Below, piece after piece: positions 15,924-18,696 of a DNA stretch of 41,877 bases. The stretch's first letter is position 1, and each line of letters opens with the position of its first letter. The translations under genes and the position numbers were made by a program. The DNA comes from Alicyclobacillus sp. (GTDB lineage: Bacteria > Bacillota > Bacilli > Alicyclobacillales > Alicyclobacillaceae): NCBI RefSeq assembly GCF_023511815.1, contig NZ_JAIMAV010000017.1:1-41877 (forward strand), in the 5' to 3' direction. Below the pieces are notes generated by a model. It worked only from the letters and a program-made list of their open reading frames with translations, made no database searches and was not told the origin of the DNA.

Positions 15924-17375
15924 ATGCCGACGGTGGCGTTTCACACCTTGGGCTGCAAGGTGAACTTTTACGACACGGAGGCCATCTGGCGCATGTTCAA
16001 GGCGGCCGGGTACGAGCAGGTGCCGTTCGAGGAGCGGGCGGACGTGTACGTGATCAACACCTGCACCGTGACCAACACGGGCGATCGCAAGTCGCGGCAG
16101 ATGATCCGCCGGGCGGTTCGGACCAATCCGGACGCGACCGTCGTCGTGACGGGTTGCTACGCCCAGGTCGCACCCGACGAGGTCGCGAAGATCGCCGGGG
16201 TGGACCTGGTGGTCGGCAACGACCGGAAATCGAAGATCGTGGAGCTGGTGGAACAGGTCCAGCGCGAGCAGCACCCGTACCAGGCGGTGGGCAACATTCT
16301 GAAGACGCGTGAATTCGAGGAGATGGACGTCCCGTTCTTCGAGGAGCGCACGCGTGCCAACCTGAAGATCCAGGACGGGTGCAACAACTTTTGCACGTTC
16401 TGCATCATCCCGTACGCGCGCGGGCTCATCCGCAGCCGCAGGCCGGAGAACATCGTGGTGCAGGCGACAAAGCTCGCCAAGGCGGGATACCGGGAGATTG
16501 TCCTGACCGGCATTCACACCGGCGGATACGGGGCGGACCTGGACGGGTACCGGCTGTCCCATCTGCTCGAGGCGCTCGAGGCGATTCCGGAATTGTACCG
16601 GGTGCGGATCAGCTCCATCGAGGCCAGCGAGATCGACGATCGCCTGATTGACGTGCTCGGCCGCTCGCGCAAGGTCTGCCGGCACCTTCACATCCCGCTC
16701 CAGGCGGGTCACGACGAGGTGCTGCGGCGCATGAACCGGCACTACCGGGTGGCGGCCTACGCGGAAAAGTTGGCGAGCCTACGGGCGGCGTTGCCCGACG
16801 TGGCCATCACCACCGACGTGATTGTGGGCTTTCCGGGGGAGACGGACGAATATTACGAGGCCTCGGAGGCGTTTGTGCGCGAGATGGCGTTCTCGCAGCT
16901 GCACGTGTTCCCGTACTCGCCCCGAAAGGGGACGCCGGCGGCGCGCTTTCGCGATCAGGTGCCGGAGGACGTGAAGGAGGCGCGCGTCCAGCGGATGCTG
17001 CGCCTGTCGCAGGAACTGGCCCATCACTTCGCATCCAGGCATCTCGGCCGGCGCCTAGAGGTCATTCCGGAGGAGCCGCTGCATCTGGAGGGACGGGGGG
17101 TGCACCCGGGGCAGGGACCCGACGGGAAGCCGGGGTTCTGGCTGGTCGGGCATGCCGACAACTACCTGAAGGTGGCGTTTCCCGTCCCGGAAGGGGTGGC
17201 GCCGGAGTCCATCATGGGCGAGGTGTGCGAGGTGGAGCTGACGGAGGCGGGCGGCCACCTGCAACAGGGACGGTTCATCGGTCAGCGGACGCATGCCCAG
17301 GTGGACCTGGACGCGGCGAGCGCGGTGCTGGATTCCGCCGCGACCCCCGCGAAGGCGTTGGCGGCCCGGGCGTAG
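15924..17375 (+). CDS. mtaB: tRNA t6A37 methylthiotransferase MtaB
   Basis: Radical SAM enzyme that converts t6A37 to ms2t6A37 in ANN-decoding tRNAs. The 483-residue product has an N-terminal MTTase domain with cysteines in TLGCKVN (C11), INTCTV and VTGCYAQ, which hold the second iron-sulfur cluster. The radical SAM triad is C153-x3-C157-x2-C160 (CNNFCTFC). A TRAM-like domain is expected at the C-terminus. GGAGGTG at 15911-15917 supports the ATG at 15924. A 15-base near-duplication spans the stop codon (17361-17375 and 17376-17390), so a second in-phase stop lies 15 bases after the first. Usual family length is about 430-450; the extra residues are in the C-terminal tail. Confidence 0.95.
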   Translation: MPTVAFHTLGCKVNFYDTEAIWRMFKAAGYEQVPFEERADVYVINTCTVTNTGDRKSRQMIRRAVRTNPDATVVVTGCYAQVAPDEVAKIAGVDLVVGNDRKSKIVELVEQVQREQHPYQAVGNILKTREFEEMDVPFFEERTRANLKIQDGCNNFCTFCIIPYARGLIRSRRPENIVVQATKLAKAGYREIVLTGIHTGGYGADLDGYRLSHLLEALEAIPELYRVRISSIEASEIDDRLIDVLGRSRKVCRHLHIPLQAGHDEVLRRMNRHYRVAAYAEKLASLRAALPDVAITTDVIVGFPGETDEYYEASEAFVREMAFSQLHVFPYSPRKGTPAARFRDQVPEDVKEARVQRMLRLSQELAHHFASRHLGRRLEVIPEEPLHLEGRGVHPGQGPDGKPGFWLVGHADNYLKVAFPVPEGVAPESIMGEVCEVELTEAGGHLQQGRFIGQRTHAQVDLDAASAVLDSAATPAKALAARA

Positions 17376-17390: not shown

Positions 17391-17427
17391 GCGGCAAGAC
17401 GGCGGGGACGAGAGAGGAGGCCATCGG

Positions 17428-18696
17428 ATGGCGGAGGAACGGGTGGAGCGCGCGGCCGGCGGGTTTGTGGTCCGCCGGCGCGGGAGCGGACGAGAGGTGC
17501 TGTTGATTGACGATGCGTACGGACGGGTGTCTTTCCCCAAGGGGCACCTGGAACCGGGGGAGACGTGGGAGGATGCGGCGGTGCGCGAGGTCCGCGAGGA
17601 GACGGGCATCCTGTCGCGAATCCTCGCGCCGCTCGGCCGCGTCGAGTACCTCATTGAGCGGGACGGCGCGCCGGTGCGCAAGCAGGTTCGCCTGTTTCTG
17701 ATGGAGGAGATTGACGAGCAGGACGAACCCTCGTATCAGGCGGAGGAGGTGCGCGGGGCGTACTTTCTCCCGTGGGATGAGGCGGATCGCCGCCACCGGG
17801 CGCAGGGCTACGAGAACTGGTCGTGGGTGTTCGCGAAGGCGGACGCGCTGTGGCGCTGGCACGAGAGCCGCTGGGAGACGCGCCTGCGCGGGGTGTCCAA
17901 CTCGGCGGATGCCATCGACGCGGTGTGGAACGAGGTCTCCCCGCTGCTGGACGACCTTGTGGCCGCGGTGGCGCGGGAGCTGTCGGTGGTGGCCCCGGCG
18001 CTCCACCGGCAGGCGGAATCCCCCGCCCTGCCCAGGGAGGTGGAGGCGGCGTCCTTGCCGCAGGCGATTGAACACACCCTGCTCAAGCCGGAGGCGTCCC
18101 AGGTGGACGTGGAGAACCTGTGCCGGGATGCGGCCCGCCACGGTTTTCACGCGGTGTGCGTCAATCCGCAGCACGTAGGGCTCGCGCGGCGGATGCTCGA
18201 CGGAACCGGTGTGGCGGTATGCACCGTGATCGGGTTTCCGCTCGGCGCCGCGGACCCGGTGGCGCTGGTGGCGGAGGCGGAGGCGGTCGTGCAAGCGGGG
18301 GCCGTCGAGATTGACATGGTGATCCCGGTCGGCTCCATGCGGGAGGACGACATCTGGACGGTGCATGATCACGTGCGGCGCGTCTGTGAAGCGGCGCACC
18401 GTCACCCGGGCGTGACGGTCAAGACCATCCTCGAGACCCATTTCCTCACCGCCTCCCAGGTGTGCATGGCGTCGATGGTCGCCGCGGCGGCGGGAGCCGA
18501 CCTGGTCAAGACCTCCACCGGATTCGCGCCGACGGGGGCGAGGATTGCGGACGTGGCGATGATGGCCCTCTCCGCGGGCGGCCGCGGCGTGAAGGCGGCG
18601 GGCGGTGTCCGCACCCGCGCGGACGCCCTGGCGATGATGCGGTTCGGGGCGACGCGCATCGGCACCAGCTCAGGCGTGGCCATGCTCAGGCAGTAG
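17428..18696 (+). CDS. Nudix hydrolase fused to deoxyribose-phosphate aldolase (DeoC)
   Basis: One open frame of 422 residues holds two complete enzymes. Residues 1-135 are a Nudix domain with a perfect Nudix box (G38 to residue 60: GHLEPGE, then REVREETG). The lead-in FPKGHLEPGE resembles that of diadenosine polyphosphate hydrolases. Residues 208-422 are DeoC, which splits 2-deoxyribose 5-phosphate into glyceraldehyde 3-phosphate and acetaldehyde. Its catalytic residues are all present: Asp296 in VEIDMVI, the Schiff-base Lys361 in LVKTSTGF, and Lys389 in GVKAAGGVRT. The linker (136-207) includes a helical, acidic and tryptophan-rich part. GAGAGGAGG at 17411-17419 supports the ATG; no internal start with a binding site was seen for a separate deoC. 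Its 3' end overlaps the converging gene by 27 bases. Confidence 0.88.
   Translation: MAEERVERAAGGFVVRRRGSGREVLLIDDAYGRVSFPKGHLEPGETWEDAAVREVREETGILSRILAPLGRVEYLIERDGAPVRKQVRLFLMEEIDEQDEPSYQAEEVRGAYFLPWDEADRRHRAQGYENWSWVFAKADALWRWHESRWETRLRGVSNSADAIDAVWNEVSPLLDDLVAAVARELSVVAPALHRQAESPALPREVEAASLPQAIEHTLLKPEASQVDVENLCRDAARHGFHAVCVNPQHVGLARRMLDGTGVAVCTVIGFPLGAADPVALVAEAEAVVQAGAVEIDMVIPVGSMREDDIWTVHDHVRRVCEAAHRHPGVTVKTILETHFLTASQVCMASMVAAAAGADLVKTSTGFAPTGARIADVAMMALSAGGRGVKAAGGVRTRADALAMMRFGATRIGTSSGVAMLRQ

Follow-up and report, generated by a model that had tools for sequence, protein, structure and literature searches.

A Nudix domain fused to deoxyribose-phosphate aldolase behind mtaB in Alicyclobacillus and its relatives

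In the window (the whole 41,877-nucleotide stretch of Alicyclobacillus DNA that was analysed), the gene located behind mtaB encodes a Nudix domain and a deoxyribose-phosphate aldolase (DERA, DeoC) within one polypeptide. Sequence analysis supports the view that the product is a real, conserved two-domain enzyme, in which both active sites are complete. The explanation that we favour, and consider probable, is a fused housekeeping enzyme with two activities that work independently, derived from neighbouring genes of a prmA-rsmE-mtaB-nudix-deoC locus. According to this model, adjoining nudix and deoC genes would have been joined by the loss of a stop codon or frame break. Judging from homology and gene content, the DERA domain would (i) cleave 2-deoxyribose 5-phosphate to acetaldehyde and glyceraldehyde 3-phosphate, and (ii) end the breakdown of deoxynucleosides begun by a nucleoside phosphorylase and a phosphopentomutase encoded elsewhere; the Nudix domain would hydrolyse a dinucleoside polyphosphate or a similar nucleotide. 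The fusion would provide 1:1 co-expression and, in the family of the window, a predicted fixed arrangement of the domains, not substrate passing.

Structure of the fusion gene and its product

The fusion gene (positions 17428–18696, plus strand) is an open frame of 422 codons, whose translation contains no stop, as the preliminary description had stated. It is preceded by a Shine-Dalgarno sequence, AGGAGG (17415–17420, plus strand), 7 nt 5' of the ATG, and by mtaB (15930–17375, plus strand), the upstream neighbour conserved in synteny over the class. The 3' end of the gene is overlapped over 27 bp (18670–18696) by a convergent NptA-like (Na/Pi cotransporter-like) gene, and the same overlap was observed in L004 and other relatives.

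The N-terminal part of the protein (residues 9–123; 17452–17796, plus strand) matches Pfam PF00293 NUDIX (7.4e-18), with a score above the Pfam cut-off. The Nudix box GX5EX7REUXEEXGU (residues 39–61; 17542–17610, plus strand) is matched perfectly by GHLEPGETWEDAAVREVREETGI. The C-terminal part (residues 209–421; 18052–18690, plus strand) is a DeoC/DERA domain, recognized by NCBIfam TIGR00126 deoC (residues 211–419; 1.6e-62, 210.7 bits, against a curated cut-off of 117.3 bits) as well as by Pfam DeoC (residues 218–421; 4.1e-18). In E. coli the catalytic triad of DERA is Asp102/Lys167/Lys201 (PMC8403123), and alignment identified Asp296 (18313–18315), the Schiff-base Lys361 (18508–18510) and Lys389 (18592–18594), all on the plus strand, as its equivalents. 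The perfect Nudix box and the three catalytic residues reported previously were thus both recovered, and the Pfam and TIGR00126 scores place the two matches far beyond chance.

The domains are connected by a linker (about residues 141–205; 17848–18042, plus strand) for which the AlphaFold2 model predicts helices at residues 134–146, 149–154 and 160–188. The length of approximately 70 residues given in the preliminary description holds (about 60–70 residues separate the conserved cores), with the qualification that the segment is predicted to be folded and helical, not loose. The model reached a pLDDT of 94 and a pTM of 0.93, linker included (linker blocks, pLDDT ≥83), and predicts a fixed arrangement of the two domains through the helical linker.

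Conservation of the fusion in related genomes

The fusion was searched for in 61 relatives. It was found in one frame in all 37 Alicyclobacillaceae genomes searched, including the window's own, with a decayed second half in G012. The homologues of this family are full-length, display 45–79% identity and contain no internal stops; among them are proteins of Alicyclobacillus macrosporangiidus (78% identity), A. pomorum, A. contaminans, A. mengziensis and A. ferrooxydans. The sister family also carries the fusion, with a short linker (2–24 residues between the domain matches, compared with about 60–90 in the window's family), and scattered fused members were detected in families f17, f22, f25, f27 and f30. 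Both domains are under strong purifying selection (pairwise dN/dS, omega, of 0.02–0.16 in nearly all pairs). The omega of the linker is higher, though mostly below 0.5, which indicates weaker purifying selection than in the domains.

These data bear on the trivial explanation, namely that two genes only look joined, an assembly or sequencing error having erased the stop or frame break that separates them. In its favour, more distant families have separate genes, some of them one stop apart. However, the same open frame is present in other genomes of the family, including those of A. macrosporangiidus, A. pomorum, A. contaminans and A. mengziensis, and the linker itself has an omega below 1. 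We regard the probability of such an error as practically nil, and rejected it because the uninterrupted frame recurs over the family. The preliminary description had named two genes with a stop in the linker of related genomes as the finding that would overturn it; close relatives keep a continuous frame, and the fusion recurs in the whole family and its sister family. The separate genes of more distant families show how the fusion arose, not that it is false.

A short-linker fusion of family f17 was modelled by AlphaFold2, from a thinner alignment, with a pLDDT of 90 and a pTM of 0.70, i.e. without a confident domain arrangement. The difference between the pTM values (0.93 and 0.70) indicates that fusions of different origin need not share their geometry, which speaks against channelling as a shared reason for the fusions.

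In a 249-genome sample of the phylum, no DeoC neighbour of the Nudix profile was found in the out-of-class loci inspected. Three loci outside the class (L147, L143 and L151) contain relatives matching the Nudix profile in long frames (323–524 aa) without DeoC, which suggests other fusion partners; the L147 frame begins like a glycerate kinase. In the open literature searched, no paper mentioned Nudix, deoxyribose-phosphate aldolase and fusion side by side, and no title or abstract described a fusion of this kind. Both domains belong to well-known families; on these weak literature grounds, it is their combination and its repeated origin that may be new.

Locus organization and repeated origin of the fusion

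Across the class, prmA, rsmE, mtaB, nudix and deoC follow one another in a conserved order, accompanied by a convergent NptA-like gene. In many families the Nudix and deoC genes are separate yet adjoining: they (i) overlap by 4 bp (L051, L056, L065, L067, L089), or (ii) lie in the same frame, with a stop a few bases ahead of the deoC start (L053, L054, L063). In L062 and L078 the two genes share a frame with TGA-ATG between them, a single stop codon short of fusion.

A tree was built on the flanking MtaB, PrmA and RsmE proteins, which lack the fusion trait. It requires seven switches between the fused and separate states, at least six of which are forced by starred branches. The fused state arose about 6–7 times, apparently whenever the stop codon or frame break separating the neighbours was lost; the switches could in principle include fissions, but the scattered fusions are surrounded by separate genes. 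Control pairs from the same loci, about as tight as Nudix-DeoC, were never found fused (PrmA-RsmE, 0/52; RsmE-MtaB, 0/58; MtaB-Nudix, 0/74), compared with 57/92 for Nudix-DeoC. The Nudix gene is present in 80 of the 151 sampled genomes of the class; by hand-matched positions, it is fused to DeoC in 20 of these, adjacent to it in 37 and not adjacent in 23. Each gene also occurs at the locus by itself: some families have mtaB-deoC without Nudix (L086, L121, L124, L127, L128), and family f5 includes genomes with Nudix behind mtaB and deoC elsewhere.

The repeated fusion of one pair, and the fact that 57 of these 80 genomes have the two genes adjacent or fused, hint at some functional link beyond chance, and this counts against the favoured explanation. 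In a functional fusion, even a dead DeoC domain would shape or regulate the Nudix domain, or the pair would clear a still unknown deoxyribosyl (poly)phosphate. This would explain why Nudix-DeoC alone at this locus fuses repeatedly; we nevertheless consider it rather improbable.

The aldolase domain

Foldseek searches with the model yielded 3ngj, 8qps and 6d33 at TMt 0.91–0.95; all 50 of the 50 matches listed are DERAs, and none of those listed covers the Nudix part. Among these matches, identity to DERAs such as 8qps and 6d33 amounts to 44–50%.

A search of the genome containing the window (G000) revealed a single DeoC match, the fused domain. The deo genes for phosphopentomutase (deoB, contig C122) and pyrimidine-nucleoside phosphorylase (contig C88) are located on other contigs. 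No deo gene was found near the fusion in the surrounding stretch examined, where the neighbours are mtaB and the NptA-like gene, and deoC does not lie beside deoB, a phosphorylase or a regulator, as it would in a deo salvage operon. The earlier remark on the absence of neighbouring salvage genes is correct locally, but the same genome does encode deoB and the phosphorylase. The position behind mtaB, also recorded earlier, turned out to be one that deoC commonly occupies across the class. On the simplest reading of the gene content, the fused DeoC would be the cell's DERA for deoxynucleoside breakdown, placed behind mtaB like the deoC of many relatives.

In three genomes, G011 (only 85% complete), G016 and G020 (loci L017, L015 and L022, respectively), the fused DeoC site is intact and no match to deoB was detected. 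Against the favoured explanation, an intact DeoC without deoB leaves the source of the sugar phosphate in these genomes unexplained.

The Nudix domain and its likely substrate

All six key residues of the Nudix box are intact in every fused relative examined, and the catalytic residues are also present in the separate relatives examined. The best matches of a profile of 32 Nudix members were the Ap4A hydrolase of Aquifex (5.8e-29) and Ndx1, the Ap6A hydrolase of Thermus (5e-23), in agreement with the resemblance to diadenosine polyphosphate hydrolases noted in the preliminary description. Invariant positions in the 32-row alignment include AGG, Asp29, Lys85, Gln104/Glu107 and GYxN. From this distant homology, we infer that the domain is a pyrophosphohydrolase of a locus-specific subfamily nearest to the Ap4A/Ap6A hydrolases, and that it probably acts on a dinucleoside polyphosphate or a similar nucleotide.

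Nudix ADP-ribose diphosphatases are marked by a proline in the X-loop, and Ap(n)A hydrolases by a conserved tyrosine in the X-loop region (PMC5389931). In the Nudix part analysed here, no proline occurs among the invariant or nearly invariant columns C-terminal to the box. Tyr74 is present in 76 of 78 sequences and is common to the Aquifex and Thermus enzymes, although its alignment with human Tyr87 is not clear.

Decay of the aldolase and probable independence of the two activities

Among the 58 fused proteins examined, four (L030, L032, L037 and L041) lack the aldolase active site. The residues at the three catalytic positions of DeoC are D-I-M in L030, N-S-Q in L037 and D-T-Q in L041, and L032 is degenerate. 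In a further genome, G050 (L109), the DeoC domain is gone and mtaB is followed by Nudix without a partner. All five cases retain an intact Nudix box. This decay of the aldolase beside an intact Nudix box makes it most likely that the two activities are independent.

Three of the four decayed cases possess another deoC as a separate gene; in G044 and G048 this second copy lies between deoB and a phosphorylase gene. The fourth, G012, has neither deoB nor a phosphorylase above the cut-off. In genus g2, G018 combines a second deoC with an intact fused site, and in its sister G003, which has a longer branch, the fused site is lost, as expected if the extra deoC came first. Decay was observed in 3/8 cases with a second deoC and in 1/42 without (Fisher p=0.011, in a test that ignores shared ancestry). 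This enrichment, together with the lack of the deo pathway in G012, shows that aldolase loss tracks the state of deoxyribose metabolism; the Nudix domain does not follow.

The preliminary description had proposed a coupled two-step enzyme: Nudix would act on an NDP-deoxyribose-like compound, and the deoxyribose 5-phosphate set free would be handed on to the aldolase. In favour of such coupling are the repeated fusion and the conserved adjacency, both confined to the Nudix-DeoC pair, and the fixed arrangement predicted at a pTM of 0.93. However, the aldolase is destroyed or lost in five genomes with Nudix intact, either gene occurs behind mtaB without the other, no X-loop proline of the ADP-ribose diphosphatase type is conserved, the short-linker fusion lacks a confident arrangement, and the literature search found no paper on ADP-deoxyribose with Nudix enzymes. 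The release of deoxyribose 5-phosphate for the aldolase was thus not borne out, and we consider coupling very unlikely; the decay patterns and the X-loop leave a coupled deoxyribose pathway unsupported.

The full-length DeoC-like domains of L030, L037 and L041, pseudo-aldolases that have lost the catalytic lysines, may point to a non-catalytic role, which is a further argument against the favoured explanation. DeoC could serve partly as a scaffold for Nudix (in folding, oligomerisation or regulation), so that decayed domains are kept, and the rigid packing predicted for the window protein would fit such a role. However, Nudix is found alone in G050 and as a stand-alone gene in many relatives, the decayed domains may simply be en route to loss, and the short-linker fusion reached a pTM of 0.70. 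We therefore hold a scaffold role to be possible but unlikely, and retain a bifunctional fusion with independent activities as the preferred explanation.

Significance and comparison with known systems

The locus provides a clean case of repeated fusion of the genes of unrelated enzymes, in which the separate and one-stop-apart forms still exist in living relatives. The decay of one site beside an intact other one constitutes a natural experiment, which warns that a gene fusion does not by itself prove that two enzymes share a pathway. The analysis also identifies the only putative DERA of an Alicyclobacillus-type genome and, linked to the mtaB locus, a Nudix subfamily that is widespread and uncharacterised.

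The aldolase part is like the known DERAs (TIGR00126, EC 4.1.2.4; e.g. 8qps of Geobacillus and 6d33, BH1352 of Bacillus halodurans) in fold, catalytic triad and domain length. In contrast to them, the Alicyclobacillus protein has an additional N-terminal Nudix domain and a helical linker, and its gene is placed behind mtaB, outside any deo operon. Among solved structures, the Nudix domain is matched best by Aquifex aeolicus Ap4A hydrolase (3i7u) and by the Ap6A hydrolase Ndx1 of Thermus (1vcd). Both share with it the box, a PKG motif and a downstream Tyr, but are small stand-alone proteins without the GYxN motif that is invariant in the present subfamily. Mycobacterial MutT1 consists of a Nudix domain plus a histidine phosphatase. 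Like the fusion described here, it joins a Nudix domain to a second enzyme domain; the two differ in the partner, in our case an aldolase of class I, and in the Nudix subfamily (37 bits with the MutT1 model, compared with a cut-off of 475). The adjacent, unfused Nudix and deoC genes behind mtaB in other families of the class share the Nudix subfamily (32-row alignment) and the locus with the fusion, but are two genes that overlap or lie a few bases apart.
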